A stretch of DNA of 35,541 nucleotides from an uncultured Lachnospiraceae bacterium (GTDB lineage Bacteria; Bacillota; Clostridia; Lachnospirales; Lachnospiraceae). Below, one piece after another: positions 2,507 through 35,541 of the stretch. Below the pieces are notes generated by a model, which saw nothing but the letters and a program-made list of their open reading frames with translations, did not search any database and was not told the origin of the DNA. Position 1 is the first letter of the stretch, and every line of letters starts with the position of its first letter. The translations under genes and the position numbers were made by a program. The stretch lies in NCBI GenBank assembly GCA_930972465.1, contig CAKNHF010000030.1, positions 1-35,541 on the forward strand, given 5' to 3'.

Positions 2507-3859
2507 TTATTCTTTACTTCCGACAGTTACGCTGAACACAACGTCAACATAGCCGCCGGCTCCCAGACGTCTGCCTCTGATCCTGATCGAGTCGCCGGCG
2601 TTGATCTCAAGAAGCTCGTTCCGGTATGCCGCCATATTCGTCACTTCTTCCCCGTTTATCTCCCGGATCACATCCCCGCTCTGAATCCCTGCCTGCATGG
2701 CCGGAGAGTCCGCATCCACGTCCTTCACATAAATGCCCTCGGGAATTCCCCGCTCTTCCTGTACTTCTGAAGTCACTGCCGCACCGGTGATGCCGATATA
2801 CGGTACGCTCTCCCCGTTTGCAAGCATTTCAATGACAGACTTCAGATCAGAGATACCGTAGACATTCACCATATTTCCCGAAGTATCCTCCCAGAGAGAC
2901 GACGGAATCAATCCGACGACCTCCCCTTTCAGGTTGAACAGAACTCCCGTTCCGCCCCTGACAGCGGCAATGTCCGTTGCAAGGACATCGCACTCTCCGT
3001 CATAAAATGTTTCCTTGTAATCATCAGAACTTATGATTCCATATCCGAGTCCGTCCGCGTAGCCGAACATATTCCCCAGCGCAAACACCGCATCTCCCTG
3101 TCTCATACTGTTAGAATTTCCAAGTACGGCCACTTCCACGGAGTTCCATGTGGAATCGGACAGGGAATTCCTTGCCACGCTGAATACCGCCAGGCCGGTA
3201 TTCCGGTCCTGCCTCTTCAGAGAAGCGGGATACTCCGTCCCGTCCCGGAATGTCACGGACCAGCTGTCTGCGTCGGTACACACAGAACTGTCCGCCAGAA
3301 CAAGAAGTTCTCTTCCATTGTCAGCGGTGACCACGCCCGCAACAGAGTCACGGATTCCGGTATCCGACGAACTCCAGTCATTTTCCGCGGAAACCCGGCT
3401 CACCGAGGCAATTCCTTTCTGAGCTTCCTCTGCAGTATCATACAGACTGTCCATGATCTCCTCATAGCTCTGTACATCGAAGACCGGCTGTTCCGGTTCT
3501 TCTTCCTCTTCATTTCCTGTCTGTTCTTCCGGCGTCTCTTCATCTTCCGGAATCGTCACTGTCCTGGGATTATCCTGAAACCAGCCCTGCGCCCATGGTC
3601 TGAGCGCAAAAAAGCCAAGGCAGGCAAAGACTCCAAGTATCAGTCCGTACACAGCGATCCTGACAAATTCTCTGATGAGCTTTTCCCTGCTTATCGGCTT
3701 CGGCTTTATTGTCTCCCGCAGGAAAGAATAGCGCTCTTCCCTGCTGTTTTCTTCACGTCCATTCTCTTCGCGGACGCCTTTCGCGCCGGCGTCTCCTCTG
3801 CTTTCGTTGTCCTCCGGTTCTTCTCTTCTGCCCGGATTCCGGTCTTCATCATATGGCAT
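2507..3859 (-). CDS. Membrane-anchored HtrA-like PDZ protein with a lost catalytic triad (putative pseudoprotease)
   Basis: This 450-residue protein has the DegP/HtrA plan. A charged cytoplasmic N-terminus is followed by one membrane helix (~66-86), an acidic linker (~100-125), a trypsin-like double barrel (~140-345) and one PDZ domain (~355-447). The active-site positions do not match. The His region (normally TNNHV) reads LADSSV near residue 191. The Asp of TDLAV reads NTGLAV (G222). The nucleophile loop (normally GNSGGPLVN) reads RGGTGVLFN at 301-309, with no Ser. The surrounding fold signatures (GTEYPA, GLAVFSV, LKGEVVGL, GVYVKDV-like PDZ strand) are well kept, so this looks like a maintained non-proteolytic protein and not a decaying gene. 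It would act outside the membrane as a PDZ scaffold or chaperone (inference). It has its own promoter (3901-3929) and is followed by yhaM. Confidence 0.85.
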   Translation of the reverse strand: MPYDEDRNPGRREEPEDNESRGDAGAKGVREENGREENSREERYSFLRETIKPKPISREKLIREFVRIAVYGLILGVFACLGFFALRPWAQGWFQDNPRTVTIPEDEETPEEQTGNEEEEEPEQPVFDVQSYEEIMDSLYDTAEEAQKGIASVSRVSAENDWSSSDTGIRDSVAGVVTADNGRELLVLADSSVCTDADSWSVTFRDGTEYPASLKRQDRNTGLAVFSVARNSLSDSTWNSVEVAVLGNSNSMRQGDAVFALGNMFGYADGLGYGIISSDDYKETFYDGECDVLATDIAAVRGGTGVLFNLKGEVVGLIPSSLWEDTSGNMVNVYGISDLKSVIEMLANGESVPYIGITGAAVTSEVQEERGIPEGIYVKDVDADSPAMQAGIQSGDVIREINGEEVTNMAAYRNELLEINAGDSIRIRGRRLGAGGYVDVVFSVTVGSKE

Positions 3860-3900
3860 AGGCGTGGATCTCCTACAGGCATAAATGTCTTACGTGTAAT

Positions 3901-3929
3901 AGTATAACCGATTCAATTGGATTGTTCAA
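3901..3929 (-). promoter_or_regulatory. SigA-type promoter of the HtrA-like/yhaM operon
   Basis: On the minus strand the -35 box TTGAAC (3924-3929) and the -10 box TATACT (3901-3906) are 17 bases apart. The expected start point is near 3894, leaving a leader of about 35 bases before the ATG at 3859, which has a TAGGAG ribosome binding site. Confidence 0.7.
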
Positions 3930-4050
3930 TATTTTATACTTCCTGTTGAAAAACCTTTTCTTTGAAGAAAGAATAGGGTAAAATGAAACATGTACCCTCT
4001 GGGAGGATACACATTTCTTACATTTTGAACTGTAAAGACAAGGTGGCATT

Positions 4051-6426
4051 ATGAACCAGAAAACTTTATCAAAACTAGAATTTGACAAGATTTCCGCGCT
4101 TCTGGAAGAAGAGGCATCTTCCTTCCGCGGCCGTCAGCTGTGCAGACGGTTAAAGCCTATGACGGATCTGAACAAGATCGACACGTATCAGGAACAGACC
4201 GCCGCGGCATTTACACGGATTGTACGGAAGGGGAGGATTTCCTTCGGAGACGCGGCGCCCATAGAAGAGTCAATGAAACGGCTGGAGATCGGCGGCGCCC
4301 TGAGCATCTCGGAGCTGCTCCGCATCAGCCGGCTTCTGTCCAACACCGCCCGTGTAAAATCCTACGGGCGCCATGATACACAGGAGGATTCCGCCGACTG
4401 TCTCGACGCCTATTTCGATCAGCTGGAACCTCTCACTCCGTTGACGAATGAGATCGACCGGTGCATCATCTCCGAGGATGAGATCAGTGACGACGCCAGC
4501 CCTGCGCTGAAGAAGATCCGCCGCAGCATCGGCGGGATCAACGACAGGGTACATTCCACTCTGACGGGCCTTGTAAACGGATCTCTTCGCAGCTATCTTC
4601 AGGATCCGATCATCACCATGCGCGGCGACCGTTACTGTCTCCCCGTAAAGGCGGAATACCGCAGTCAGGTTCAGGGACTGATCCACGACCAGTCTTCCAC
4701 CGGTTCCACGCTGTTTATCGAGCCGATGGCTGTCGTGAAGCTCAATAATGATTTAAAGGAGCTCTATGCCCGCGAACAGGAGGAGATCCAGGTCATTCTC
4801 GCAGATCTCAGCCAGGAGGCCGCACAGTATATTGAAGAGATCCGGGCAGATTACCGGGCTCTCACTGATCTTGATTTTATCTTTGCGCGCGGCGCGCTGG
4901 CGCTTTCCATGAATGCCAGCCGCCCGATACTCAATGAGGAGGGACGGATCCGCATCCGCGAAGGCCGTCATCCTCTGCTGGATCCGAAGAAAGTGGTTCC
5001 AATCACGGTCTCTCTCGGAGAAGATTTCACGCTTCTTATCATCACAGGTCCCAATACGGGCGGAAAGACAGTGTCTCTTAAAACTGTCGGCCTGTTTACC
5101 CTGATGGGGCAGGCCGGGCTCCACATTCCTGCAGGAGACCGTTCCGAGCTTGCGGTCTTCCATCAGGTGTACGCGGATATCGGAGACGAGCAGAGTATTG
5201 AACAGAGCCTGAGTACTTTTTCGTCCCATATGACGAATATCGTATCTTTCCTGAAGAAAGTGGATGAACGCTCCCTTGTTCTCTTCGATGAACTCGGAGC
5301 CGGAACAGATCCCACGGAAGGCGCGGCGCTTGCCATCGCGATCCTTTCTCATCTGCACAAGCGTGGGATCCGCACAATGGCGACTACGCATTACAGCGAG
5401 CTGAAGGTCTATGCCCTCTCTACGCCGGGCGTGGAAAATGCCTGCTGTGAATTTGATGTAGAGAGTCTGAGGCCCACATACCGCCTGCTTATCGGTATCC
5501 CCGGAAAGAGTAATGCATTTGCCATTTCCGGAAAGCTGGGGCTTCCGGATTATATCATAGAAGACGCGAAGAAGCGTCTCAGCGAACAGGACATTTCCTT
5601 TGAAGATCTCCTGAGCGATCTTGAATCCAGCAAACGGACCATTGAAAAAGAGCGGGAGGAGATCGCCGCATACCGGCGCGAAGCCGAAGACCTTAAGAAG
5701 CAGGCCAGAGAACGCCAGGAAAAGCTGGATGAACAGCGGGAGCGCATCCTGAGGGAGGCGAACGAGAAGGCCAACGCCATTCTCAGAGAAGCCAAGGAAG
5801 TCGCGGACGAGACGATCAAAAATTTCCGCAAATTCGGGAAGGAGAATATCTCCGCCTCTGAGATGGAAAAAGAGCGTGAGCGTCTCCGTCAGAAGATCAA
5901 AGATACTTCTGCCGCTTCCTCTCTTAAAGTTCAGAAACAGAAGAAGGCATATAAGCCCTCTGATTTCAAGCTCGGCGAATCCGTGAAGGTACTCAGCATG
6001 AATCTTACCGGAACCATAGCGTCACGCCCTGATTCCCGGGGGAATCTTACCGTACAGATGGGAATTTTACGTTCCCAGGTGAACATATCCGATCTTGAGA
6101 TCATCGAAGAGCCTTCGCCGTATACGCCCAAAAAACTGAGCCGCACGTCCAGAGGAAAAATCGGAATGAGCAAATCTCTTTCCGTGAGCCCGGAGATCAA
6201 TCTCCTCGGGCGCACCGTTGACGAGGCGGTAGCCGAGCTGGACAAATACCTCGACGACGCGCTGCTCTCACATCTTGACACCGTGCGCATCGTTCACGGG
6301 AAGGGCACCGGCGCTCTTCGAAAAGGCATACACGAATATCTCCGGCGCCAGAAACATGTCAAGTCCTACCGGCTTGCGGAATTCGGCGAGGGGGATGCCG
6401 GCGTCACAATCGTAGAACTTAAATAG
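4051..6426 (+). CDS. mutS2: MutS2 family ATPase/endonuclease with Smr domain
   Basis: The 791-residue length is typical. The core and clamp helices come first. The ATPase follows, with Walker A GPNTGGKT near 333-340 and Walker B LVLFDELGAGTDPTEGAAL. A long charged coiled coil covers ~515-610, and the C-terminal Smr domain covers ~713-791 with HGKGTG at 749-754. MutS2 proteins suppress homologous recombination and/or rescue collided ribosomes. The Smr LDLRG element reads INLLG here, so the Asp is an Asn and the Arg a Leu. This may weaken the nuclease function or may be usual in this clade. The start is the ATG at 4051 behind AAGGTGG. The TAG stop shares its G with the repeat element at 6426. 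Confidence 0.95.
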   Translation: MNQKTLSKLEFDKISALLEEEASSFRGRQLCRRLKPMTDLNKIDTYQEQTAAAFTRIVRKGRISFGDAAPIEESMKRLEIGGALSISELLRISRLLSNTARVKSYGRHDTQEDSADCLDAYFDQLEPLTPLTNEIDRCIISEDEISDDASPALKKIRRSIGGINDRVHSTLTGLVNGSLRSYLQDPIITMRGDRYCLPVKAEYRSQVQGLIHDQSSTGSTLFIEPMAVVKLNNDLKELYAREQEEIQVILADLSQEAAQYIEEIRADYRALTDLDFIFARGALALSMNASRPILNEEGRIRIREGRHPLLDPKKVVPITVSLGEDFTLLIITGPNTGGKTVSLKTVGLFTLMGQAGLHIPAGDRSELAVFHQVYADIGDEQSIEQSLSTFSSHMTNIVSFLKKVDERSLVLFDELGAGTDPTEGAALAIAILSHLHKRGIRTMATTHYSELKVYALSTPGVENACCEFDVESLRPTYRLLIGIPGKSNAFAISGKLGLPDYIIEDAKKRLSEQDISFEDLLSDLESSKRTIEKEREEIAAYRREAEDLKKQARERQEKLDEQRERILREANEKANAILREAKEVADETIKNFRKFGKENISASEMEKERERLRQKIKDTSAASSLKVQKQKKAYKPSDFKLGESVKVLSMNLTGTIASRPDSRGNLTVQMGILRSQVNISDLEIIEEPSPYTPKKLSRTSRGKIGMSKSLSVSPEINLLGRTVDEAVAELDKYLDDALLSHLDTVRIVHGKGTGALRKGIHEYLRRQKHVKSYRLAEFGEGDAGVTIVELK

Positions 6427-7214: not shown

Positions 7215-8618
7215 ATGAAAAGCATCCTGCATTTAAAATTCATTGCGCTTTATCTTATATTTGCCTTTCTGTGCATCTTCACGACCGCGACCCTTACAAC
7301 CCAGCTGATCACGGACCGCCTGGAAGAGGACACTTCACAGACACTGTACAGGGAGGCTTCTCTGATCGCCAGCGATTATCTCCCTTCCTATTTTACGGAT
7401 GATTCTTCGTTCCAGGCCGTTCAGTCCCAGCTGGCCGCGATGCGCCTTTACCTGGAATCCTCTCTCTGGTTTGTGAAAAGCGACGGGACGATGATCACTT
7501 CCTCCAATCTGGAAGGAACCTCCGCCCCTGAAGTGATCCGTGACTTTGATCCCGCCGAGATCGGCGGAAACCAGTATATCACAGGAAATTATCACGGCTA
7601 CTTCGATGAGGACATGATCACTGTTATGTCCCCGGTCACTCAGGGTTTTTCCACAAAAGGATATCTCCTGATCCACAGCCCGGTGTCGCTTATAGATGAA
7701 AAATGCCGGATTCTCATGGTGCCCGTACTTATTACCCTGGGTGTGATCTATCTCCTCTCTTTCATCTTCCTGATCGGTTTTCATTTCTTTGTGTATCGGC
7801 CGCTCAGGCAGATCACGGAAGCGGCAAAGCAGTATGCCTCGGGAAATCTTGACTATGAGATCCCGGTGTACACCCACGACGAGATAGGTTATCTCTCGGC
7901 GTCACTCAACTACATGGCCGTGCAGCTCAAGGACATGGATGATTATCAGAAAAAGATCGTAGCAAATGTCTCTCATGACTTCCGATCCCCTCTGACATCC
8001 ATCAAGGGCTATGTAGAGGCCATGAACGACGGAACGATCCCTCCGGAGCTTCATGAGAAATATCTGCGGATCATCCTGTTCGAGACAGAGCGGCTCACTG
8101 ATCTTACAACTGATCTGCTCACTCTGAATGAATTTGATACCAAGGAGCTTCTTCTCGACAAAACACAGTTTGATATCCAGGAAGTCATCAAGACTACTGC
8201 AGAATCCTTTGAAGGAGTGTGCACACCGAAGCACATCTCAATCGAGCTGCTTCTGCTCCCCGGAGAGATTCTTGTTTATGCCGACAGACGCAAGATCCAG
8301 CAGGTGCTGTACAATCTCATAGACAATGCAATCAAATTCAGTGAGAATAATTCTTCCATAACAATCGAAGTGGTAGAGAAAAACGGCAAAGTGTTCGTCT
8401 CCGTAAAGGATCACGGAATCGGAATTCCAAAGAAAGAGCTGAATAAGATATGGGAGCGCTTCTATAAATCCGATCTTTCCCGCGGAAAAGACAAGAAGGG
8501 CACAGGTCTCGGACTTTCTATCGTCAAGGAGGTCATCCAGGCTCACGACGAGCATATTAATGTTATCAGTACAGAAGGGGTGGGAACCGAGTTTATCTTC
8601 TCCCTTTCCCGTTCGTAA
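7215..8618 (+). CDS. Membrane sensor histidine kinase
   Basis: With the start at 7215 (CGGAG eight bases upstream) the protein has 467 residues. In-frame ATGs at 7176 and 7197 lack a good ribosome binding site, and the first overlaps the regulator gene. The layout is TM1 (~5-30), an extracellular sensor of ~135 residues, TM2 (~168-192), HAMP (~193-246), HisKA with the phospho-accepting H254 (NVSHDFRSPLTSIKGY), and an HATPase domain with N box YNLIDNAIKFS, G1 DHGIGIP and G2 GTGLGLSIV. It should phosphorylate the preceding response regulator. The ligand is unknown. A strong terminator ends the unit. Confidence 0.93.
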   Translation: MKSILHLKFIALYLIFAFLCIFTTATLTTQLITDRLEEDTSQTLYREASLIASDYLPSYFTDDSSFQAVQSQLAAMRLYLESSLWFVKSDGTMITSSNLEGTSAPEVIRDFDPAEIGGNQYITGNYHGYFDEDMITVMSPVTQGFSTKGYLLIHSPVSLIDEKCRILMVPVLITLGVIYLLSFIFLIGFHFFVYRPLRQITEAAKQYASGNLDYEIPVYTHDEIGYLSASLNYMAVQLKDMDDYQKKIVANVSHDFRSPLTSIKGYVEAMNDGTIPPELHEKYLRIILFETERLTDLTTDLLTLNEFDTKELLLDKTQFDIQEVIKTTAESFEGVCTPKHISIELLLLPGEILVYADRRKIQQVLYNLIDNAIKFSENNSSITIEVVEKNGKVFVSVKDHGIGIPKKELNKIWERFYKSDLSRGKDKKGTGLGLSIVKEVIQAHDEHINVISTEGVGTEFIFSLSRS

Positions 8619-8635
8619 CAACATGTTAACACAGA

Positions 8636-8690
8636 AGAGCGGAATACACTGCCGGAAATCCGGTCAATGTATTCCGCTCTTTCTTTCTCA
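8636..8690 (+). terminator. Terminator after the histidine kinase gene
   Basis: A 13-bp stem (8636-8648 with 8668-8680) around a loop holding a small CCGG hairpin is followed by the T-rich run TTCTTTCTC. It lies 18 bases after the kinase stop codon. Confidence 0.85.
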
Positions 8691-8765
8691 TTTCAGGACT
8701 GCCCGGTGACCCCCCGGCCATCCGCGCGAAGCATATCTCAGATGGGAACTGACTCCCGTCTGAAA

Positions 8766-10028
8766 TTACTCGTAAAGCATTGCCTGAACAGTCTCTTCCT
8801 CCATGTTGCCCCGGTCCGCCCAGATATATCCCGTGTTCACATCGGCCTCATTGCCGATCTCAAGAACAGTACGGGCAGCCGCAATCACTGACGCATACCC
8901 GATTCCGAACGGGTTCTGCACGATCAGACCGTCCACATCACCATTTTCCAGGGAGTCCAGCTGATCCTTGCCTGCGTCAAAGCCCATTACCGTAACATCC
9001 TCGATCCTGTCCATGGAAGCAAGCGCTGACACGCAGAGCTGTGTTGCCGCCTCATTCGTACCGAAGCATCCCTTCAGTTCGGGATGTTTTCCAAGATAAT
9101 ACGCAACAGCCTCTTCATCACTCATTGCTTCAGCCGCGGCCGTCACTTCTTCCATTTTCTCATCAGCTGCAGGATCTTCTTCCGCATCTTTGTTCTCCGC
9201 TTCCGGATCCGCGGCAGTCTGTGACTCCTGGTCGTTCGTTTCTTCCTCTGTCTCAAGAGTAACATTGAGCTGCTCCGCCGCAGCCTGCCGCTTCAGCCCG
9301 TCAAGCTGATCCATGTAAATCGTTTCGACAATGGTCACATTCGGATGACCGGAAGTAATCTCCTCACGGAAACCTGCCTCCCGCTCCTTGCCGTTTTCCG
9401 AAACCGAGTCCTGAACGATCAGCGCCACCTCGCCGCTGTCCTCCACGGCCTCACACAGATGAGCGGCGCCTTCCGCCGCGGCTTTTGTATTGTCTGTCCT
9501 GCATGTACACTGTATTCCCTTGTAACTGTTTCCCGAATCAAATGCCACAATTGGAATTCCGTTCTCTGTCGCCAGATCGAACTGTACCGCCGATGCACTT
9601 TCATCAATGCTGGCAATCGCTACCACATCCGGATATCTTGCAAGCTCTTCATCCAGAATATTCACCTGTTCATCAATATCCTCACCGTCCGCAGGAGCGT
9701 TGAACAGTACTCTGATCTGATCCTCTCCTGTATATCCCAGGGCTTCATTCAGATCTTCCCCGGCCTGTTCCACGCCTTCCCTGATCTGCTTCCAGTAGGA
9801 AGCGTTCTCTTCTTTACCGATTACCGATATATATGTCCCCGGCTCCAGATCAAGCCCCCCAGCCTCACTGTACGCCGCCGGAGAGATCGCATCAAGATTT
9901 TCCTGATATGGCAGCTTTTCTGTGGTCTCTCCTGTAAATACATTCTCATCTTCTCCGGAACTGCACGCACACAGTATCACAGCCGTACAGATTCCCACTG
10001 ATATTATAGAAACAGATTTCTTTCTCAT
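8766..10028 (-). CDS. Orphan sugar-binding-type (periplasmic-binding-protein-like I) lipoprotein
   Basis: The 420-residue protein begins with a signal peptide and a lipobox LCAC (lipid-modified Cys22), so it should be anchored on the outer face of the membrane. The rest matches the ribose/galactose-type binding fold: YISVIGKEENASYWKQIREGVEQA, IPIVAFDSG, GCFGTNEAATQ and VTVMGFDAGKDQLDSLENGDVDGLIVQNPFG (last blocks given as short landmarks). A very acidic segment rich in Glu, Asp and Ala interrupts the second lobe at about 258-303, where typical family members have a short loop. No ABC ATPase or permease lies beside it, so it is an orphan that may serve a distant importer or a sensor. It is convergent with the histidine kinase and divergent from the ferredoxin. 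Ligand unknown. Confidence 0.82.
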   Translation of the reverse strand: MRKKSVSIISVGICTAVILCACSSGEDENVFTGETTEKLPYQENLDAISPAAYSEAGGLDLEPGTYISVIGKEENASYWKQIREGVEQAGEDLNEALGYTGEDQIRVLFNAPADGEDIDEQVNILDEELARYPDVVAIASIDESASAVQFDLATENGIPIVAFDSGNSYKGIQCTCRTDNTKAAAEGAAHLCEAVEDSGEVALIVQDSVSENGKEREAGFREEITSGHPNVTIVETIYMDQLDGLKRQAAAEQLNVTLETEEETNDQESQTAADPEAENKDAEEDPAADEKMEEVTAAAEAMSDEEAVAYYLGKHPELKGCFGTNEAATQLCVSALASMDRIEDVTVMGFDAGKDQLDSLENGDVDGLIVQNPFGIGYASVIAAARTVLEIGNEADVNTGYIWADRGNMEEETVQAMLYE

Positions 10029-25187: not shown

Positions 25188-26813
25188 ATGAAAATACCGG
25201 AAAACACAATCATTAACGGAGATATTTTCTGGGACAGCAGTGTGCTGAAATCTTTGAAAGCCGCGCCGGCCGGAGGCGACATACAGGAGTTGTACGGGGA
25301 CGCCCCCGGATCTTTTTATGACTCGCTGGTGCGGAGCGCGGAAAAGTATCCGGACAGGATATGCATTACAGACAATGCAGGGACGTCTTATACTTACAGC
25401 CGTCTTCTCGAAATGACCGACGATTTTTCCAGAGTTCTGTTCCACAGATACGGCGTCCGCCCGGGAATGCGAATCGGTCTGCTCCTCTACAACTGCATTG
25501 GTTTCTGCGTGTCATTCTACGCGATCAGCAGACTGAACGCCGCATCCGTGCCCCTCTCGACCAAGTACCGGAAAGCAGAAGTCCTTTCCCTGATCGAGAA
25601 GGCGTCTCTGAGCGGACTGATACGGGATGAAGTATTCGCCGGCTGGTTTGAAGACGGTTCCGCAGCGGGCTGCGGTTTCATTCTGGAACTCAGCGATTCG
25701 GTTCCCGGCAGCCGGCTCCCCTCCGGGGAAGCCTGTCCGGACGTGCCTTCCTTCCGTCCGGCTCCTGCGGATACGGCGATCATCATGTTTACATCCGGCA
25801 CCACATCCTGCAGCAAAGGTGTGATCATGTCCAACTACAACACCATGCACGCCGTAACCGTATACCGGAAAATATTCCGGATCACCGAAAAAGACGTCAC
25901 TGTGATCCCGGTCCCGATCTATCATGTAACCGGGCTGATCGGGCTGCTCGCACTGTTTATAGATTCGGGCGGGCATGTGATCCTTCACAAATTCTTCGAC
26001 GCACAGAGGGTATTGAGCGATGCCGTCCGGTACAGCGTGACTTTTATCCACGCAGCCCCAACGGTATTCTCACTGCTTCTGGAACGCCGCGCAGAATTTC
26101 CTTCTCTCCCGGCGCTTCGGCTTATGGCCTGCGGAAGCAGCAATATGCCGGGGAAGAAGATTCTGGAACTGAAAGAATGGCTTCCGGATGCAGAGTTCCG
26201 TACGGTCTACGGACTGACAGAGACATCCTCACCCGCGTCCATCTTCCCGTGCGACGCTTCGCAGAGCCCTTACATGGGTTCTTCCGGGCATCCGGTTCCG
26301 GGAACTCTTTTTAAGATCTGCTCGGACAGCGGATCGATCCTTCCGCCCGGCAGAGTCGGATCCATATGGATCAAGGGTTCTGTCGTCACGCCCGGATATT
26401 TTATCAACGCTCCCGTTCCTCTTGAGGACGGCTGGCTTGATACCGGAGATCTGGGATATTTTAATGAGGAAGGATATCTGTACATCGTAGACCGCAAGAA
26501 AGACATGATAAACCGGGGCGGCGAAAAAGTCTGCAGCATCGATGTGGAAAACGCGCTGTACAACATCCCCGGCATAGCCGAGGCTGCCGTAGTCGGAATC
26601 GCGGATGAGAAATACGGCGAGGTGCCCGCGGCCATGATAACCCTGCAGCCCGGGGCGGAGCTTACGCCCGAGAAGCTTCACGACGATCTGAAGAAGGTTC
26701 TCGCCGGTTTCCAGATCCCCGCCAGATTCCTTATCGCGGACAGCATTCCTCTGACCGCGAATTCAAAGGTAGACAAAAAGAAAATCCGACAGTTACTGTC
26801 ACAGAATTTATAA
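25188..26813 (+). CDS. AMP-forming acyl-CoA synthetase (ANL superfamily)
   Basis: This 541-residue ligase should activate a carboxylic acid to its CoA thioester with ATP. Motifs in order: A3 FTSGTTSCSKG (201-211), A5 YGLTETS (341-347), A8 hinge DTGDLGYFNEEGYLYIVDRK (418-437), and the C-terminal lysine in LTANSKVDKK (K527). The A3 loop reads SCSKG where most relatives read GxPKG. It resembles CaiC and medium-chain FadD ligases, but the substrate cannot be read. It is first in a four-gene operon with a CoA transferase (13-base gap), an SDR and a thiolase. Confidence 0.9.
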   Translation: MKIPENTIINGDIFWDSSVLKSLKAAPAGGDIQELYGDAPGSFYDSLVRSAEKYPDRICITDNAGTSYTYSRLLEMTDDFSRVLFHRYGVRPGMRIGLLLYNCIGFCVSFYAISRLNAASVPLSTKYRKAEVLSLIEKASLSGLIRDEVFAGWFEDGSAAGCGFILELSDSVPGSRLPSGEACPDVPSFRPAPADTAIIMFTSGTTSCSKGVIMSNYNTMHAVTVYRKIFRITEKDVTVIPVPIYHVTGLIGLLALFIDSGGHVILHKFFDAQRVLSDAVRYSVTFIHAAPTVFSLLLERRAEFPSLPALRLMACGSSNMPGKKILELKEWLPDAEFRTVYGLTETSSPASIFPCDASQSPYMGSSGHPVPGTLFKICSDSGSILPPGRVGSIWIKGSVVTPGYFINAPVPLEDGWLDTGDLGYFNEEGYLYIVDRKKDMINRGGEKVCSIDVENALYNIPGIAEAAVVGIADEKYGEVPAAMITLQPGAELTPEKLHDDLKKVLAGFQIPARFLIADSIPLTANSKVDKKKIRQLLSQNL

Positions 26814-26826
26814 ACGGAGGTGTCAA

Positions 26827-28410
26827 ATGAAAAAGCCACAATTTCTGACCGGAAGCGAAGCGGCCATGATGATCAGCGACAGCAGCACCGTCGCCACCAT
26901 CGGAATGACGCTGGTATCTGCTTCCGAAACGATCCTGAAAGCGATTGAAAACCGCTTTCTCACAGAGGGCCATCCGAACGGGCTCACCCTCGTCCACTCC
27001 TGCGGACAGAGCGACCGGGACAGAGGTATCCAGCACTTTGCACACGAAGGGATGCTCCGCCGCATCATCGGGGGACACTGGGGCCTGCAGCCGAAGATGA
27101 TGGAACTCATTTCTCAGAACAAGATTCTTGCATACTGCATCCCTCAGGGACAGTTCGCCCAGCTCTACCGCTCCATGGCAGGCGGCGAGCCCGGCAAAAT
27201 CACCAAAGTCGGTCTGGGAACATTCATCGATCCCAGGATCGACGGCGGCAAAATGAACGAGGTCACAAGATCAGCTCCCGATATCGTAGATATCGTAACG
27301 ATCGACGGGGAAGAATATATGCGGTATAAACCGATCCCCCTGGACTACGTGATCATACGCGGTACATATGTGGACGAGATGGGAAATCTCACCACCGATG
27401 AGGAGGCAATGCAGCTGGAAGTTTTCTCCGCCGTCATGGCATGCAAGAAATTCGGCGGAAAGGTGATCGCCCAGGCCAAGTACAAGGTCAAGAGCGGGCA
27501 GCTTCACTGCAAGCGCGTTGTGGTGCCGGGCATCTTCATTGACGCGGTCGTCATGTGTCCGGATCCGGAGAACGATCACCGGCAGACACACAGCTTTGCA
27601 TTCGATCCCGCCTACTGCGGCGATATCAAAGTGCCGGTTTCCGGCTCTGACATCCTGCCTCTCACCCCCCGCAAACTGATCGGACGGCGCGCACTTATGG
27701 AACTGTCCATGGACGACGTCCTGAATGTGGGCACCGGCATACCAAACGACGTAGTCGGACCGATTATCGCGGAGGAAGGCATTGACGACGACGTCACAGT
27801 CACGGTAGAATCCGGAATCTACGGCGGCATCCCCATGGGCGGCATAGACTTCGGCATCGCAAAGAATAACTTCGCTCTCGTCCGGCATGACGATCAGTTT
27901 GATTACTACAATGGCGCCGGAGTTGATGTTACATACATGGGCGCCGGCCAGATCGATCCGGAAGGAAACGTCAACGCGACAAAACTCGGTCCTCTCCCCA
28001 CCGGAGCAGGCGGCTTCATCGATATCACGACCAACGCCAAACACGTTGTCTTCTGCTCCACTTTCACCGGGAAGGGACTGGAGTGCAGTTTCGAGGGCGA
28101 CAGGCTGCATATCGTACACGAAGGAAGCCTGATCAAATTCGTGAAGAAAGTAACACAGATTTCATACAACGGAAAGATTGCAAGAGAGAAAGGCCAGAAG
28201 ATGCACTACGTCACCGAGCGTGCCGTATTCGAGCTCCGGCCCGAAGGCGTGGTTCTCACAGAAATCGCGCCGGGAATCGATCTTCAGACTCAGGTACTTG
28301 ATCTGATGGAGTTCACCCCCATCATCAGCCCCGATCTTAAGACAATGAATCCCGATTTATTCCGTGTATCCGGGCCATTCGGCCTGAAAGATATTATAAG
28401 AAACAAATAA
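26827..28410 (+). CDS. Family I acyl-CoA:acetate/3-ketoacid CoA transferase (YdiF/propionate CoA-transferase type)
   Basis: The 527 residues comprise fused alpha- and beta-type CoA-transferase domains on one chain, as in YdiF and propionate CoA-transferase. The alpha-like half contains the ITKVGLGTFIDPRIDGGKMN block. The beta-like half has GTGIPNDV and the catalytic glutamate E328 in TVTVESGIYGG. The enzyme moves CoA between an acyl-CoA and a free acid through a glutamyl-CoA intermediate. Its place next to a CoA ligase gives the pathway two ways of activating or releasing acids. AACGGAGG precedes the start. Confidence 0.92.
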   Translation: MKKPQFLTGSEAAMMISDSSTVATIGMTLVSASETILKAIENRFLTEGHPNGLTLVHSCGQSDRDRGIQHFAHEGMLRRIIGGHWGLQPKMMELISQNKILAYCIPQGQFAQLYRSMAGGEPGKITKVGLGTFIDPRIDGGKMNEVTRSAPDIVDIVTIDGEEYMRYKPIPLDYVIIRGTYVDEMGNLTTDEEAMQLEVFSAVMACKKFGGKVIAQAKYKVKSGQLHCKRVVVPGIFIDAVVMCPDPENDHRQTHSFAFDPAYCGDIKVPVSGSDILPLTPRKLIGRRALMELSMDDVLNVGTGIPNDVVGPIIAEEGIDDDVTVTVESGIYGGIPMGGIDFGIAKNNFALVRHDDQFDYYNGAGVDVTYMGAGQIDPEGNVNATKLGPLPTGAGGFIDITTNAKHVVFCSTFTGKGLECSFEGDRLHIVHEGSLIKFVKKVTQISYNGKIAREKGQKMHYVTERAVFELRPEGVVLTEIAPGIDLQTQVLDLMEFTPIISPDLKTMNPDLFRVSGPFGLKDIIRNK

Positions 28411-28426
28411 AAAGGAGGAAACGAAC

Positions 28427-29170
28427 ATGAGACTTAAAGACAAAGTTGCCATCGTCACAGGCGCAGCCCGCGGCCTTGGGAAAGGTATTGCAAAAAAGCT
28501 GGCTGAAGAAGGGGCCAAGGTAGTCATCGCCGATATGGCCGGCGCAGAGGAAGCCGCTGCAGAGATCAATCAGGAAGGCGGAACCGCAAGCGCGTTCCAG
28601 GTCAACGTCTCCAAACAGAGCGAAATGCAGGCTCTCGTTCAGTATGCAGTGGATACATACGGCACACTGGATATCATGGTAAACAACGCCGGCATCAACC
28701 GCGACGGCATGCTTCACAAAATGCCGGCCGAGAACTGGGATACCGTCATCGCAGTGGACCTGACAGGCGCATTCTACGGAACCCAGGAAGCGATCAAATA
28801 TATGAGACCGAAGGGATACGGACGTATCATTAACATCTCTTCCGGAAGCTGGCTGGGCAATATCGGACAGGCAAACTATGCCGCAGCCAAAGCCGGCGTG
28901 GTAGGTCTGACCAAGACCGCTGCACGTGAAAATGCGCGGAAGGGCATCACATGCAACGTCATCTGCCCCGGATTCATCGAGACAGATATGACGCTCAAGC
29001 TCAAAGAAGTCAACGACGGGGCTGCCTGGGACAGTATGATGCAGAGAATCCCCATGGGTTATGCCGGCAAGCCGTCCGACGTAGGAAACATGGTCGCTTT
29101 TCTCGCTTCCGATGAAGCCGCATACATCACTTCCGAGATCATCAATGTGGGCGGCGGAATGATCGTTTAG
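28427..29170 (+). CDS. FabG/PhaB-like SDR, probable 3-hydroxyacyl-CoA dehydrogenase (acetoacetyl-CoA reductase)
   Basis: A 247-residue classical SDR: cofactor motif TGAARGLG (11-18), NNAG (86-89), and catalytic S138/S139, Y151 and K155 (NYAAAKAG). FabG-like features include INISSGSWLGNIGQANYAAA and NVICPGFIETDMT. Between a CoA transferase and a thiolase it is more likely to work on a 3-hydroxyacyl-/3-ketoacyl-CoA than on acyl-carrier protein. Direction is unknown. The gap from the CoA transferase is 16 bases, with AAAGGAGG. Confidence 0.85.
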   Translation: MRLKDKVAIVTGAARGLGKGIAKKLAEEGAKVVIADMAGAEEAAAEINQEGGTASAFQVNVSKQSEMQALVQYAVDTYGTLDIMVNNAGINRDGMLHKMPAENWDTVIAVDLTGAFYGTQEAIKYMRPKGYGRIINISSGSWLGNIGQANYAAAKAGVVGLTKTAARENARKGITCNVICPGFIETDMTLKLKEVNDGAAWDSMMQRIPMGYAGKPSDVGNMVAFLASDEAAYITSEIINVGGGMIV

Positions 29171-29228
29171 TTCCGGGACAACTGATTCCCATGCTCCGGC
29201 ATGGATAAGAAATATGGAGGATAAAACA

Positions 29229-30416
29229 ATGAGTGAATTTAAAGACGTTGTAATCGTAAGCGGCGTCCGCCTGCCGGTAGGCTCATTCGGCGGCAGCCTG
29301 AAAACTGTTTCCGCAATCGACATGGGCGCAATGGTTGTAAAGGAAGCCGTAAACCGCGCCGGCATCCAGCCCTCAGATGTAAATGAGGTGATTGTAGGAC
29401 AGGTAGGAGAGATCGCCCAGGACGGATTCGTCGCACGCGCAGTCAGCCTGAAGGCCGGCATGCCCAAGGAGTGCACCGCTTACTCCGTAAACCGCCAGTG
29501 CGGATCCAGTCTGCAGGCCATCGCAGACGCTGTTATGGAAATCCAGACCGGTTTTGCAGACGTTGTGGTCGCTGCCGGTACAGAGAACATTTCCCAGCTT
29601 CCCTACTATGTAAAGGATGCCCGCTGGGGAGCAAGGATGGGACACAAGACCTTTGAAGACGGGGTCATCGATATCCTCACCTGGCCTCTGGACGGAAACC
29701 ACAATGGCGTAACCGCTGAAAATGTCGCTGCAAAATATCACGTTTCCCGCGAGGAGCAGGACGCTTTCGCACTGCAGTCTCATCAGCGCGCATGCGCGGC
29801 GATCAAAGCCGGCAAGTTCAAAGACGAGATCCTTCCGGTAGAGCTTAAGGACCGCAAAGGCAATGTCACCATCTTCGACACCGACGAAGGCCCGAGAGAA
29901 GGCCAGACCATCGAGAAACTGGCAAGACTCCGCCCCTGCTTTGTAAAGGACGGCACTGTTACCGCCGGGAACTCTTCCAGCTTAAACGACGGAGCGGCCG
30001 CCGTTGTCGTAATGTCAAGGGAGAAGGCCGAAGAACTGGGAGTTGCTCCGAAGCTGAAGATAGAAGGATATACTGTTGCCGGATTCGACGCAGAACTTAT
30101 GGGGTATTCCCCGAAATTCTCCAGCGAGCAGCTGGCGGCCAAGCTGGGAATCAACTTAAAAGACATCGACATGTTCGAGATCAACGAGGCGTTTGCAAGC
30201 CAGGCCGTAGCCGTGAGCAGAGATCTCGGACTGGATATGGATAAAGTAAACATTTACGGAGGAGGTATCTCCATCGGCCATCCGATCGGCGCCACAGGCT
30301 GCATCCTTACCGTCAAAGTCCTCTATGAATTAATGCGGACCGACAAGAAAGACGCCATGATCTCCATGTGCATCGGAGGCGGACAGGGAATCTCCATGTA
30401 TTTCACAAAATGCTGA
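29229..30416 (+). CDS. Acetyl-CoA C-acyltransferase (thiolase)
   Basis: The start is the ATG at 29229 behind GGAGG. An earlier in-frame ATG overlaps the ribosome binding site. The 395-residue enzyme has all thiolase residues: acylated C91 (NRQCGSSLQAI), the GHP histidine H351 (ISIGHPIGATGC) and C381 (CIGGGQGIS). It is close to biosynthetic/degradative acetoacetyl-CoA thiolases. It cleaves or forms the 3-ketoacyl-CoA made by the adjacent SDR. It is last in the operon, 58 bases after the SDR, and is followed by a terminator. Confidence 0.93.
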   Translation: MSEFKDVVIVSGVRLPVGSFGGSLKTVSAIDMGAMVVKEAVNRAGIQPSDVNEVIVGQVGEIAQDGFVARAVSLKAGMPKECTAYSVNRQCGSSLQAIADAVMEIQTGFADVVVAAGTENISQLPYYVKDARWGARMGHKTFEDGVIDILTWPLDGNHNGVTAENVAAKYHVSREEQDAFALQSHQRACAAIKAGKFKDEILPVELKDRKGNVTIFDTDEGPREGQTIEKLARLRPCFVKDGTVTAGNSSSLNDGAAAVVVMSREKAEELGVAPKLKIEGYTVAGFDAELMGYSPKFSSEQLAAKLGINLKDIDMFEINEAFASQAVAVSRDLGLDMDKVNIYGGGISIGHPIGATGCILTVKVLYELMRTDKKDAMISMCIGGGQGISMYFTKC

Positions 30417-31754: not shown

Positions 31755-34337
31755 TCAGCAGGTTGCTCCGCCTTTAAGGTGCTTCTGCGCCTTGATGTTT
31801 TCTTCCTTTCTTGCCAGAAGGTCATCCGCCAGAAGCTGTTCCTGAACATTTTCAAATCCGATGCGGGCTACTGTATCCGCAAAACGTTCCCCTGTGATTC
31901 CCTGCTCCCGGAACAGAAGGATCGCCTTCTCCACAATCGCAAGCACCTCGTCCTTGTCTGTAAATACCTTGTCCAGATATCTGCCCTGGGCCACTTTCTT
32001 GCCCCAGCGTCCTCCGATGTAGATCCGGTATCCGTTGGTGTAGTTCTCGACCGCATGGAACGGACATTTCCCTACGCAGCGTCCGCAATGATTGCATGCG
32101 CTGTCGTCGATGGTAATCTTTCCGTCAACCAGCTTCGCCACCTTGATCGGACAGTTGTTCTCCACCTGGCATACCTTGCAGCCGCGGCATTTTTCCAGAT
32201 CAATCTGAGGCACTCTCTGCCCGATGATGCCCAGATCATTCAGATCCGGCTTCACGCAGTTGTTGGGACATCCGCCCACCGCGATCTTGAACTTGTGCGG
32301 CAGTTTCACCTCGCGGTATCCATGGTAGAATCTCTCGTGGATTTCCTCGGACAGAGCGAACGTATCGATCAGTCCGTACTGACATGTGGTTCCTTTGCAG
32401 GAAACGACCGGACGCACTTTGGAGCCCGTGCCGCCTGTCTCAAGCCCGGCCTGCATCAGGTACTCTCTCAGCGGTTCAATATTGTCGAACGGCACTCCCT
32501 GGATCTCCATCGTCAGACGGGATGTCATTGTCACTTCGCCGCTTCCGAACTTCTCCGCCGCCTCGGCGATCACCCTCGCCTCATCGGATGTGATCTTTCC
32601 GTTCCTGGTGATCACACGGCCGTTGAATCTGTCGGGAGTTCTTTTGTCTTTCAGGAAACCGAGGGCTTTCACTCTCGTCTCCTCTTCCTTGGAGACTGCC
32701 CCTTCCGCATTTTTCACCCTTACATCATTAAAGAACGTCGCCCCTTCCAGCACAACGGTATTTTTATATCCGTAGTAGCGCATCCGGTTCTGCAGGAAAT
32801 ATGCTCTTTTTCCCTTCGCGCAGACAAGCAGGAGCTTCTCGTCTTTACCGAGTCCTTCGATCTCGCCGTTTACCTGGGCAAGATTTACATAGTGCGCTCC
32901 ACGGATCGTCGGTTCCGGCGCCACATCCACAACCTTGTAGTCTTCCGCCGCTCCCGCCGCATATTCAGCCGGCGTCATGCTGACAATCGTTCCGTCAATC
33001 TTGTTCATAAGCACATAGACCGCCTGCACAAACGGATGGATCGCCGTAGAAAACGGCGGCGCATAAGCGAAATCCGCATTTTCAAAATCATCCAGAACAG
33101 CGCCCATGTTGATCGCCATAACAGCGATATCCACCATCTTGTCCACTTCGCCCGGTCCGAATACCTGAACGCCCAGAAGTTTTCTGGTAGTCCGGTCCGC
33201 GATCAGCTTGGTGATGAAGAACGCCGCATCCGGATAGTAGTGCGCCTTGTCGTCTGTCGGCGCCAGCACGGTAACCACATCATAACCGGCCTCTTTCGCC
33301 TGTGCCTCTGTGAGTCCGGTCCGTCCGATATTCAACCCCGGAAGTTTGACCACGCCGGTTCCGAGAACGCCCGGGTAGGTCTTCGCTGATCCTGTCAGAA
33401 TCTGAGCCAGCGTCCGGCCTTCCATGTTTGCGGAAGACCCCATGGGCGACCACTGACGCGCCCCTGTAATCCGGTTGGTCACCATCACGCAGTCGCCCGC
33501 CGCATACACATCGTCCAGGCTTGTCTTCATTGTGTTGTCCACAAGGATTGTTCCCTTGAACATCTCAATTCCGGTATCTTTCAGGAAATCGGTATTCGGC
33601 CGGATTCCCGCAGCCATGATAAGCATTTCGCAGGGCAGTGTTCCGGCGGAAGTCCTCACTCCGGTCACTTTATCCGTTCCCAGAATCTCCTGCGCGCTCG
33701 TGCCCGTGATGACGCGGATTCCCGCATTGATCAGGTGTTTCTTCGCATATGCCGCCATCTCGGGATCAAGGATATTGGGAAGAATCTGCGGCGCGAAATC
33801 AATAACCGTCACATTGATCCCCTTCGCTTTCAGATTCTCAGCCGCCTCAAGACCGATAAATCCGGCGCCGATGACGACCGCTTTCTTCACGTTGTTTGCT
33901 TCGGCATATGTACGGATTCCCTCCGCGTCATCCGGAGTTCTCATTGTAAATACGCCCGGCAGTTCTTTTCCTTCAATGGGGAGCTCTGCCGGAGATGCGC
34001 CTACGGCGATCACCAGTTTATCATAGGAACAGACCTCCTCTGCACCTGTGGCGGTATCCCTTACAGTAACTTCCTTTTTCTCTGCGTTCAGCGCAACCGC
34101 TTCTTTTCCCGTTCTAACTTCCACGCCCGTCAGTCCGGAATATTTCTGCGGTGTGTTCACGATCAGTTCGTCTCTGCCTTCAATCAGCCCTCCCACGTAA
34201 TAAGGAAGTCCGCATCCCGCGTAAGAAATATCCTGATCTTTCGTAATAACTGTAACTTCCGCACTTCTGTCCTCTCGCTTAAGTTTCGCGGCAGTCTTTG
34301 TTCCGGCGGCAACCCCGCCGATGATCAATACTTTCAT
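31755..34337 (-). CDS. Four-module fusion: CoA-disulfide reductase-like flavoprotein, rhodanese, sirohaem reductase-like domain, 2[4Fe-4S] ferredoxin
   Basis: The start is placed at 34337 (MKVLIIGGVAAG, AGAGGT upstream); the longer frame overlaps the DUF134 gene. The 860 residues are: FAD/NAD disulfide reductase ~1-440 with GGVAAG, active-site C42 in SYAGCGLPYY and VVIGAGFIGLE; rhodanese ~450-545 with C506 (CAKGKR); sulfite/nitrite reductase-like ~570-700 with C647, C652, C690 and C694, the usual iron-sulfur/sirohaem ligands; two [4Fe-4S] motifs ~717-758. The first sirohaem pair is C-x4-C where C-x5-C is usual. This suggests an NAD(P)H-driven cytoplasmic reductase for polysulfide, persulfide, thiosulfate or sulfite (inference). 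It starts four bases after the DUF134 regulator. Confidence 0.88.
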   Translation of the reverse strand: MKVLIIGGVAAGTKTAAKLKREDRSAEVTVITKDQDISYAGCGLPYYVGGLIEGRDELIVNTPQKYSGLTGVEVRTGKEAVALNAEKKEVTVRDTATGAEEVCSYDKLVIAVGASPAELPIEGKELPGVFTMRTPDDAEGIRTYAEANNVKKAVVIGAGFIGLEAAENLKAKGINVTVIDFAPQILPNILDPEMAAYAKKHLINAGIRVITGTSAQEILGTDKVTGVRTSAGTLPCEMLIMAAGIRPNTDFLKDTGIEMFKGTILVDNTMKTSLDDVYAAGDCVMVTNRITGARQWSPMGSSANMEGRTLAQILTGSAKTYPGVLGTGVVKLPGLNIGRTGLTEAQAKEAGYDVVTVLAPTDDKAHYYPDAAFFITKLIADRTTRKLLGVQVFGPGEVDKMVDIAVMAINMGAVLDDFENADFAYAPPFSTAIHPFVQAVYVLMNKIDGTIVSMTPAEYAAGAAEDYKVVDVAPEPTIRGAHYVNLAQVNGEIEGLGKDEKLLLVCAKGKRAYFLQNRMRYYGYKNTVVLEGATFFNDVRVKNAEGAVSKEEETRVKALGFLKDKRTPDRFNGRVITRNGKITSDEARVIAEAAEKFGSGEVTMTSRLTMEIQGVPFDNIEPLREYLMQAGLETGGTGSKVRPVVSCKGTTCQYGLIDTFALSEEIHERFYHGYREVKLPHKFKIAVGGCPNNCVKPDLNDLGIIGQRVPQIDLEKCRGCKVCQVENNCPIKVAKLVDGKITIDDSACNHCGRCVGKCPFHAVENYTNGYRIYIGGRWGKKVAQGRYLDKVFTDKDEVLAIVEKAILLFREQGITGERFADTVARIGFENVQEQLLADDLLARKEENIKAQKHLKGGATC

Positions 34338-34341
34338 ATTC

Positions 34342-34770
34342 TTACCTCTTTTCTTTCCCTCTCTGCCTGCTGCCGGCATCTCTGTCCTCCGGCGCCGCTG
34401 TTTCCGTTTCCCGCCACCCGAACCGCAGCCCCTTTTGCCTGTGGCAGCAATGCTCTTCACCGGCGCACTCCGGCCTCATCTCCGTACAGACGGTCACATC
34501 TCCGCCGCCGATCGTGAGCTCCTTCCCGTTTATGAGCATGTCCGCCATCTTCCGCCGCGCCTCATTATAGATCCGGGTCACGGTAGTCCGGGAAATATCC
34601 ATTCTTCCGGCACACTCCTCCTGAGTCATCTGAAGATAATCCAGCAGACGGATCACCTCGTATTCATCATACGTCAGGTTCACACTGTCCCGCGCCTCAC
34701 ATCCCTGCGGTAAAAAACCCGTAACTTCCGGCACAGAACAGATACATCTCCGCTTCTGCGGTCTCGCCAT
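34342..34770 (-). CDS. DUF134 (UPF0251) DNA-binding protein
   Basis: A 142-residue protein of the DUF134 family: it begins MARPQKRRCICSVPEV, has NLTYDEYEVIRLLDYLQMTQ and a sigma-70 region 4-like helix-turn-helix (EECAGRMDISRTTVTRIYNE). Cysteines occur near the start (CIC) and in CTEMRPECAGEEHCCH, which could bind metal or sense redox state. The tail is very polar. AGGAGGG precedes the ATG. It has a consensus promoter with an overlapping dyad and leads the operon with the sulfur fusion enzyme, so it is the likely regulator of that enzyme and of itself (inference). Confidence 0.88.
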   Translation of the reverse strand: MARPQKRRCICSVPEVTGFLPQGCEARDSVNLTYDEYEVIRLLDYLQMTQEECAGRMDISRTTVTRIYNEARRKMADMLINGKELTIGGGDVTVCTEMRPECAGEEHCCHRQKGLRFGWRETETAAPEDRDAGSRQRGKEKR

Positions 34771-34819
34771 GGTATCCCTCCTTTCCTCTGCACTGTAAGG
34801 CGGCAGAAACCCTGATTTA

Positions 34820-34851
34820 AGTATACTCCATTATGAACATATGTCAATAAT
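34820..34851 (-). promoter_or_regulatory. Promoter and candidate operator of the DUF134/sulfur-enzyme operon
   Basis: On the minus strand a perfect -35 TTGACA (34842-34847) and a -10 TATACT (34820-34825) are 16 bases apart. A 22-base dyad (34830-34851) with core ACATATGT and arms ATTAT/ATAAT covers the -35 and spacer. Confidence 0.75.
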
Positions 34852-34858
34852 CCGGCAG

Positions 34859-34921
34859 AAATTGTCAGAAAACGGTGAGCATGGGGGTCAGGCCCCTTTG
34901 CTCACCGTTTTCTGACAATTT
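34859..34921. repeat. Long perfect hairpin containing the GGGGTCAGGCCCC element
   Basis: A perfect 23-bp inverted repeat (34859-34881 with 34899-34921) encloses a 17-base loop. The right half, 34884-34920, carries the two blocks GGGGTCAGGCCCCTTTG and TCTGACAATT, ten bases apart, as at 6426-6462. It lies between the rpsR terminator and the DUF134 promoter. Confidence 0.8.
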
Positions 34922-34963
34922 AAAAAGCTGACCCCGGAATATTGAATATTCCTGAAGTCAGCT
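34922..34963 (-). terminator. Terminator of the ssb-rpsR operon
   Basis: On the minus strand AGCTGAC/GTCAGCT (34957-34963 with 34926-34932) plus the inner arms GGAATATT/AATATTCC form a stem followed by TTTTTAAA. It begins 12 bases after the rpsR stop codon. Confidence 0.8.
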
Positions 34964-34975
34964 CTGTATCTTTGA

Positions 34976-35242
34976 TTAATCCTGAACGTACGGCATAAGA
35001 GAAATATGTCTTGCTCTCTTGATCGCTACTGTAAGAGCTCTCTGATGCTTTGCACAGTTTCCTGTAATTCTTCTCGGGAGGATCTTGCCTCTCTCGGAAA
35101 CATATTTCTTTAACTTTGCAACGTCTTTGTAATCGATCTCGTTGTTTTCTTTACCACAGAATACGCACACTTTTTTTCTTCTGCGTGCCGGGCCTCTTCT
35201 CTTGAAGCCGCCTTCCGGTCTGCTTCCCTTCTCGTAAGCCAT
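34976..35242 (-). CDS. rpsR: 30S ribosomal protein bS18
   Basis: An 88-residue bS18 with the core [20 protein letters not shown] and [21 protein letters not shown]. The Cys set C-x2-C (KVCVFCGK) plus C-A-K-H is the zinc-binding form. The N-terminus is basic. It sits 15 bases after ssb and is followed by a terminator, the usual rpsF-ssb-rpsR order. Confidence 0.97.
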
Positions 35243-35257
35243 GATGGTCTCTCCTTT

Positions 35258-35541
35258 CTAATTGAACGGTAACTCCTCATCAATGCCATCCGGGATATTC
35301 ATAAATCCGTCGCCTGCGTCAACGCTGGGTGACGGAGCAGTCTGCTGACGGTTGTAGGAAGCTCTGTTCGCTTCACTCTCAGCCCTGCTCTCTGCGAATT
35401 CCTGCTCTTCCACGATCACTTCCGTCGTATATACTTTCACGCCGTCCCTGTTCGTGTAGCTTCCGGTCTGAATCCGTCCGGAAACGGAAACCCGCATTCC
35501 CTGGCGGAAATACTTCTCCGCGAATTCTGCGGAACGTCCGA
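35258..35541 (-). CDS. ssb: Single-stranded DNA-binding protein, C-terminal part (runs off the window)
   Basis: The frame stays open to the right edge; the internal Met at 35497 is not the start. The visible ~94 residues include the OB-fold end (RSAEFAEKYFRQGMRVSVSG, then TNRDGVKVYTTEVIVEEQEF), a Gln/Ser/Pro linker, and the acidic tip DEELPFN used to recruit repair proteins. The tip has one extra Asn after the usual terminal Phe. Probably preceded by rpsF outside the window. Confidence 0.95.
   Translation of the reverse strand, partial: GRSAEFAEKYFRQGMRVSVSGRIQTGSYTNRDGVKVYTTEVIVEEQEFAESRAESEANRASYNRQQTAPSPSVDAGDGFMNIPDGIDEELPFN

Follow-up and report, generated by a model that had tools for sequence, protein, structure and literature searches.

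A cysteine-tailed fusion of a persulfide-reductase-like flavoprotein, a rhodanese, and a sirohaem sulfite-reductase unit in gut Clostridia

What reaction would call for a CoA-disulfide-reductase-like flavoprotein, a rhodanese, and a sirohaem sulfite-reductase unit to be carried on one polypeptide? The question is raised by a gene on contig CAKNHF010000030.1 of an uncultured Lachnospiraceae bacterium (GenBank assembly GCA_930972465.1), of which positions 1 to 35,541, here called the window, were analyzed as a whole. The fusion gene (31755..34337, minus strand, as are all of its modules; stop codon within these coordinates) starts with an ATG and encodes 860 amino acids, and its first methionine coincides with the shared start of the matches in homologues. 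This chain is real and widespread among relatives. We put at about even the chance that it acts as a soluble bifunctional sulfur reductase, in which sulfite and persulfide would be reduced within one coupled complex and Cys860, the last residue, would link the two sites.

Of 58 genomes of the same genus, 38 encode the whole chain in a single open frame, at 78 to 100% identity; six others cover residues 1 to about 545 and no more, and three contain fragments, two of which lie at a contig start. A scan of 84,980 species genomes returned 147 relatives, the named ones mostly from Lachnospiraceae and Oscillospiraceae, and the best 80 of the 147 were kept. Among 100 loci, some of which represent one genome twice, 93 gave full-length matches that reduce to 74 distinct sequences, the window's own included. 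Carriers among gut Clostridia include Mediterraneibacter, Blautia, Ruminococcus torques, Hungatella, Gemmiger, and others. An assembly frameshift or chance fusion was rejected, given the same open frame in so many genus genomes and loci. Our literature search, which was judged by listings and covered subscription journals poorly, found no publication about this fusion; a gene cluster for a sulfite reductase and sirohaem, reported in Ruminococcus bromii, may, judging from excerpts of the report (PMC6378601), concern a lone relative.

On the 860-residue chain, the Pfam families Pyr_redox_2 and its dimerisation partner (Pyr_redox_dim), Rhodanese, NIR_SIR_ferr, NIR_SIR, and Fer4 all exceed their cut-offs. 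The flavoprotein module spans residues 1 to 433 (33039..34337) and contains the redox-active Cys42 in the motif YAGCGLPY (34212..34214). It is followed by the rhodanese at residues 465 to 532 (32742..32945; 25.4 bits against a cut-off of 22.2), with active-site Cys506 in LLVCAKGKRA (32820..32822), and by the sirohaem unit at residues 565 to 835 (31833..32645), made up of NIR_SIR_ferr (565 to 628) and NIR_SIR (638 to 835). The sirohaem-coupled [4Fe-4S] motif consists of Cys647-x4-Cys652 (32382..32399) and Cys690-x3-Cys694 (32256..32270), and a 2[4Fe-4S] ferredoxin matching Fer4 families (residues 711 to 763; 32049..32207) is inserted within NIR_SIR. The chain closes with the tail GGATC (31758..31772; GGATC in 73/74 sequences and GGAKC in one). 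Cys42, Cys283, Cys506, the four sirohaem-cluster cysteines, the eight ferredoxin cysteines, and the terminal Cys860 are invariant in all 74. An earlier reading of this DNA made from its letters alone (the original prediction) had named the first two sites and the four cluster cysteines at exactly these residues, and the domain search that it foresaw bears out each of its components. Its count of four modules does not hold: the ferredoxin sits inside the sirohaem domain, as in F420-dependent sulfite reductase (Fsr) and Dsr, and the two therefore form one unit in a chain of three modules.

The N-terminal half resembles persulfide reductases that carry a rhodanese. The best solved relatives of the flavoprotein are 6pfz, 8a56, and 3icr, with 3ict also found by Foldseek, which upholds its assignment as CoA-disulfide-reductase (CoADR)-like; the nearest is A. 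fulgidus Npsr (36% identity, TM 0.92 to the target), and residues 1 to 536 align along the full length of 6pfz. Like Cys42, the CoA-site tyrosines Y367 and Y425 are invariant in 74/74. We take them to be the counterparts of S. aureus Tyr361 and Tyr419, mutants of which occur among the fold matches. The position after the second NAD strand, D180, is acidic (D or E) in 74/74 and presumably fits NADH use. This half thus shares with the CoADR-rhodanese (CoADR-RHD)/Npsr enzymes the redox cysteine, the CoA-site tyrosines, and a C-terminal rhodanese with its active cysteine, but the solved members stop after the rhodanese, while the fusion continues with the sirohaem unit and a cysteine tail. The CoA-disulfide reductase equivalog TIGR03385 gives 396.7 bits, below its curated cut-off of 578.8. 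In A. fulgidus, according to excerpts of PMC7969121, Npsr reduces persulfides and polysulfide with NADH rather than NADPH, and its rhodanese cysteine lies close to the CoA pocket.

By sequence, the best solved relatives of the sirohaem unit are the C-terminal halves of Fsr proteins (7npa, 7np8), with 9tn7 related. An AlphaFold2 model of residues 540 to 860, built from 39 aligned sequences, reached a mean pLDDT of 90.7 and a pTM of 0.87; Foldseek ranked 7npa first against it (TM 0.75, 2.7 to 2.8 Å), and all 44 matches at E ≤0.001 were sulfite or nitrite reductases. The original prediction had named beforehand two outcomes that would count against it, absence of this fold and a fusion split by assembly, and neither was seen. 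In Fsr, as described in excerpts of PMC10229431, sulfite is bound by Arg355, Arg423, Lys460, and Lys462, and Arg388 is of the assimilatory type. Our reading of the alignment maps Arg355, Arg388, and Arg423 to R574, R607, and R642 and the two lysines to K682 and K684; these five residues and the four cluster cysteines are kept in 39/39 rows, distant outgroups included.

The unit shares with the Fsr C-terminal half and with group III Dsr-LP the sirohaem-[4Fe-4S] cysteines, the four sulfite-binding Arg/Lys, the inserted two-cluster ferredoxin, and the assimilatory-type Arg; in the terms of an excerpt of PMC3448663, it is by its sequence a group III Dsr-LP with all four Arg/Lys. It departs from the canonical CX5CXnCX3C spacing of these families, which is one residue longer than the CX4C found here. 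The C-x4-C form, whose oddity the original prediction remarked on, is a genuine clade trait, present in 99/99 readable clade rows (two more being unreadable) and 2/8 outgroup rows, the other six having C-x5-C. The fusion also differs from Fsr in its GGATC tail and its N-terminal half, which is CoADR-RHD and not the F420H2-oxidase half, and it is accordingly not an Fsr. As for other sirohaem enzymes, the AsrC model (TIGR02912) matches residues 578 to 803 of the C-terminal half but scores far under its cut-off (106.3 bits against 324.1). The genus also has two short NIR_SIR proteins (L112, L113), which lay outside the AsrC comparison and show C-x5-C and no terminal cysteine.

Gene neighborhoods of the relatives point to a sirohaem supply. 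In many loci, an importer (Peripla_BP_2/FecCD/ATPase) adjoins the sirohaem gene; examples are found at lone (L161, L162, L172, L174, L176, L177, L188, L191-L193) and fusion loci (L062, L085, L099) and, on the opposite strand, at split loci (L148, L150-L153). We searched for hemC, a gene of tetrapyrrole synthesis and the sole marker used for that pathway, in 122 handles representing 120 distinct genomes (L068 = L241, L095 = L242), some of them incomplete. Linkage was scored as a match to the c5/c6 profile within 4 kb, a criterion fixed after the data that suggested it, with 69 handles added later; 17 loci close to contig ends were placed in neither class, and the table does not include the genome of the window. 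All 36 distinct genomes with a linked importer (13 fused, 8 split, and 15 lone) are missing hemC, which is present in 54 of 66 unlinked genomes and lacking in 12 (Fisher p 1.5e-17, kinship ignored; likelihood ratio 58.3 on 81 tips).

We had predicted beforehand that the unlinked, hemC-lacking genomes would hold the importer's binding protein elsewhere. At a score of at least 300 bits, it was found in 9 of these 12 and in 4 of 6 hemC-lacking genomes at contig ends (13/18 together), in 1 of 57 hemC-bearing genomes (G849), and in all five positive controls; the profiles c5/c6 and alignment A4 were partly built from loci that were then scanned, including the genomes of those controls. Misfits to the prediction were G686, G994, G939, G498, and L061 (206 bits). 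The window's own genome has hemC and gave no match to the binding protein. On the plainest reading, the importer would take up sirohaem or a precursor in genomes unable to make sirohaem, and we regard it as a candidate for that role; this reading is also the best genetic evidence that the domain uses sirohaem. A sirohaem pocket is thus supported by the fold, by the sulfite-binding Arg/Lys, and by the genetics of relatives.

The genes after the sirohaem gene at L189 encode a CbiK-like chelatase, HemA, a CysG N-terminal-type protein, HemC, and a CobA-type methyltransferase, and those at L198 a YeiH-type protein, a HemA-cluster member, and a HemC-CobA fusion. Split loci carry a LysR-cluster gene in 23/36 cases and a YeiH-cluster gene in 12/36. 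One representative of each cluster was scanned for identity; for LysR, the best NCBIfam models were the selenium-associated LysR and YeiE, both under cut-off. YeiE and YeiH have a role in sulfite stress in Salmonella (excerpts of PMC12880088).

How firmly are the two halves tied to one another? We searched 398 genomes of the phylum, 391 of the class, and 200 of the family and fetched 80 mostly stand-alone relatives with their flanks. Relatives take three forms: the fusion; split pairs, in which a CoADR-rhodanese gene precedes a sirohaem gene in one apparent operon, as in L096 (Clostridium sp. CX1) and L092; and lone sirohaem genes with no flavoprotein next door. Selenocysteine at the stop between the split halves was considered for L092 and L096 and rejected: TAA is the first stop there and the second gene has its own ATG (preceded in L092 by a ribosome-binding-like AGGAGG), and these are therefore two genes. 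The fusions differ from split units at R578, which is Arg in 74/74 fusions and Val, Ile, or Lys in 36/36 split units. All 44 lone units keep the ferredoxin insert, and in 13 lone-unit genomes searched, the best match to the CoADR half reached 309 bits, while split-locus orthologs mostly exceed 600. All 32 CoADR-bearing genomes among the 200 of the family (whole chain, E 1e-150) are also in the list of sirohaem-unit genomes. Six genes consisting of the first half only (L105-L110; about 545 to 560 amino acids, Cys42 kept) have DUF134 upstream; NIR_SIR has no match in their genomes, and tblastn found no sirohaem-reductase remnants near them (five hits, best E 1.8). In the survey of homologues that the original prediction foresaw, the fusion is kept in most genus genomes, and true two-gene and first-half-only versions exist beside it.

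The C-terminal tail follows the CoADR partner. Among the fusion sequences, the 20 residues ahead of the tail contain no invariant position, and 4 of the 5 that follow are invariant; the last four residues have a pLDDT below 50 in both models. Of the 80 fetched loci, 34 combine a terminal cysteine with a CoADR that is fused or lies on the same strand at most 500 bases away, and 40 have neither. A single locus (L173) has the neighbor and no terminal cysteine, its frame running into unrelated sequence at a contig end, and at another (L206) the tail is left open by a contig end. The association is strong when kinship is ignored (Fisher p 9e-17), and a two-trait likelihood test favors the dependent model (likelihood ratio 51.2, 4 degrees of freedom) on one quick 106-tip tree, built without the tail columns, on which the p-values of this likelihood test depend; L119 (misplaced, with a branch length of 10), L173, and L206 were left out. 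Conservation and co-occurrence lead us to infer that Cys860 may be a mobile cysteine linking the sirohaem site with the rhodanese and CoA sites.

In the coupled reductase that we propose, the activities, electron donor, and tail function are likewise deduced from these comparisons. The sirohaem unit would bind sulfite, or a sulfur oxyanion much like it, at its sirohaem-[4Fe-4S] center, to which the unit's inserted two-cluster ferredoxin would feed electrons. The N-terminal unit would act as an NADH-dependent CoA-persulfide reductase, with Cys506 handing sulfane sulfur to CoA near FAD and Cys42 and H2S being released. Cys860, on its flexible and variable tether, would shuttle between the sites and carry sulfur to the rhodanese as a persulfide, this sulfur originating either at the sirohaem site or in a substrate that the two sites share. 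Sulfite and sulfane sulfur could then both be reduced within one complex without escape.

Several observations weigh against this coupling. Four of the 80 loci have a terminal cysteine without a same-strand partner: L169 (tail GGATC, with a CoADR relative of 290 bits on the opposite strand at a distance of 870 bases), L182 (SGATC), L183 (TATC), and L178, whose KLLC looks accidental. Only three independent pairs fall on well-supported branches, and these (2.6 in the same direction, none opposite) are not significant. First-half-only genes in 6/58 genus genomes imply that the first half works alone. In Fsr, the assimilatory-type Arg goes with full six-electron reduction and no released intermediates (excerpts of PMC10229431), so that with R607 the sirohaem could do the whole reduction and need not hand over partly reduced sulfur. 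Finally, by a hand tally, the sirohaem-synthesis marker TIGR01470 is over cut-off in 34/38 full-fusion genus genomes and 12/20 others, leaving four full-fusion genomes, one rated 100% complete, without it; this marker is uninformative, however, because CbiD (cobalamin) is present in 52/58 genus genomes and because the TIGR01470 gene in the window's own genome adjoins cobalamin genes, whose names were recognized by eye.

Other readings of the same chain were weighed against these data. A possible, more specific one is a built-in counterpart of DsrC: the sirohaem would reduce sulfite partway, a persulfide or trisulfide on Cys860 would pass to Cys506 and on to CoA, and the last two electrons would come from NADH. 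The idea of a sulfur-carrying partner cysteine at the sirohaem site is borrowed from DsrAB-DsrC (excerpts of PMC10229431); the fusion differs in that the reductase chain itself ends in the cysteine, and the Pfam scan found no DsrC-like domain in the 860 residues. If this reading were true, six-electron sulfite reduction would be shared by ferredoxin and NADH in a soluble, single-chain gut enzyme. A thiosulfate or S-sulfonate reductase would account for the joining of exactly these two activities: cleavage of thiosulfate or an organic S-sulfonate by the rhodanese would leave a persulfide on the enzyme and release sulfite, the flavoprotein with NADH would reduce the former and the sirohaem unit the latter, yielding two H2S, and the tail would hold or pass one product. 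The invariance of Cys506 and the separate occurrence of both halves agree with it. The six identified neighbor clusters include no thiosulfate system, two of them being similar to sulfite-stress genes, and we consider this reading unlikely.

The original prediction had considered possible in principle a path from NAD(P)H through FAD and iron-sulfur clusters to the sirohaem, with the rhodanese delivering sulfur; such a chain would be a rhodanese-containing analogue of NirB or Fsr. Flavoprotein and sirohaem unit do share one chain, as they do in NirB, and in Fsr flavin feeds the sirohaem through the clusters of two subunits (excerpts of PMC10229431). Yet Pfam found no iron-sulfur domain in the stretch from the flavoprotein to the sirohaem unit, no BFD [2Fe-2S] family at E 0.001, and so no NirB-type linker; the NirB model (TIGR02374) gives 249.7 bits against a cut-off of 578.35; and the fusion, unlike NirB, has a rhodanese and a ferredoxin insert. 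CoA-persulfide reductases, moreover, use two-electron thiol chemistry at Cys42/CoA, and the lone units keep their ferredoxin insert in genomes (the 13 searched) without a cognate flavoprotein. The path is not borne out by these data, and we hold it to be quite improbable. We would give equally little credence to two independent enzymes that are merely co-regulated in sulfite or persulfide stress, with the tail as a docking or assembly element. The six half genes, the 44 lone units, and the split genes in one apparent operon all accord with such independence, but docking hardly explains why a cysteine stays at the very end of the chain when the 20 residues ahead of it vary, nor why it tracks the partner on the tree.

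Upstream of the fusion, after a gap of four bases, lies a gene for a 142-residue DUF134 protein (34342..34770, minus strand; PF02001, 86.5 bits against a cut-off of 27), as the original prediction had it. This protein is probably a co-transcribed DNA-binding regulator. Its rank as the dedicated regulator is not supported: DUF134 is adjacent in 47 of the 78 loci among L021-L100 with enough upstream sequence (close relatives and some at about 70% identity), the remaining 31 lack it at that place, and split loci often have a LysR gene instead. Its distribution makes it a plausible regulator in some lineages and not a constant partner. A sigma-70-like promoter match (TTGACA-16-TATACT; 34820..34847, minus strand) lies upstream of DUF134; one match against 2.7 expected in shuffles is no evidence by itself.

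Farther upstream on the same strand are ribosomal protein S18 and then SSB, cut by the window end, giving the order SSB-S18-DUF134-fusion across 34342-35541; SSB-cluster genes occur in 22/75 fusion loci and S18-cluster genes in 18/75. On the other side, a LacI-family gene faces the fusion gene. Adjoining it, genes for an acyl-CoA ligase, a FadX-like protein, a FabG-like protein, and a thiolase stand in a row (25188-30416), a possible fatty-acid degradation cluster. At L045 (Ruminococcus torques ATCC 27756), the fusion lies between two large genes (2998-5001 and 7797-9734; 668 and 646 amino acids) that look alike by eye, and DUF134 is not at the locus.

For the biology of these bacteria, the fusion offers common gut Clostridia a candidate path by which sulfite and sulfane sulfur could be turned into H2S, one that the Dsr and Asr models miss at their curated cut-offs, and it raises a pointed question concerning a C-terminal cysteine arm. 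The candidate importer of sirohaem, or of another tetrapyrrole, that accompanies its relatives may outweigh the fusion itself as a lead.

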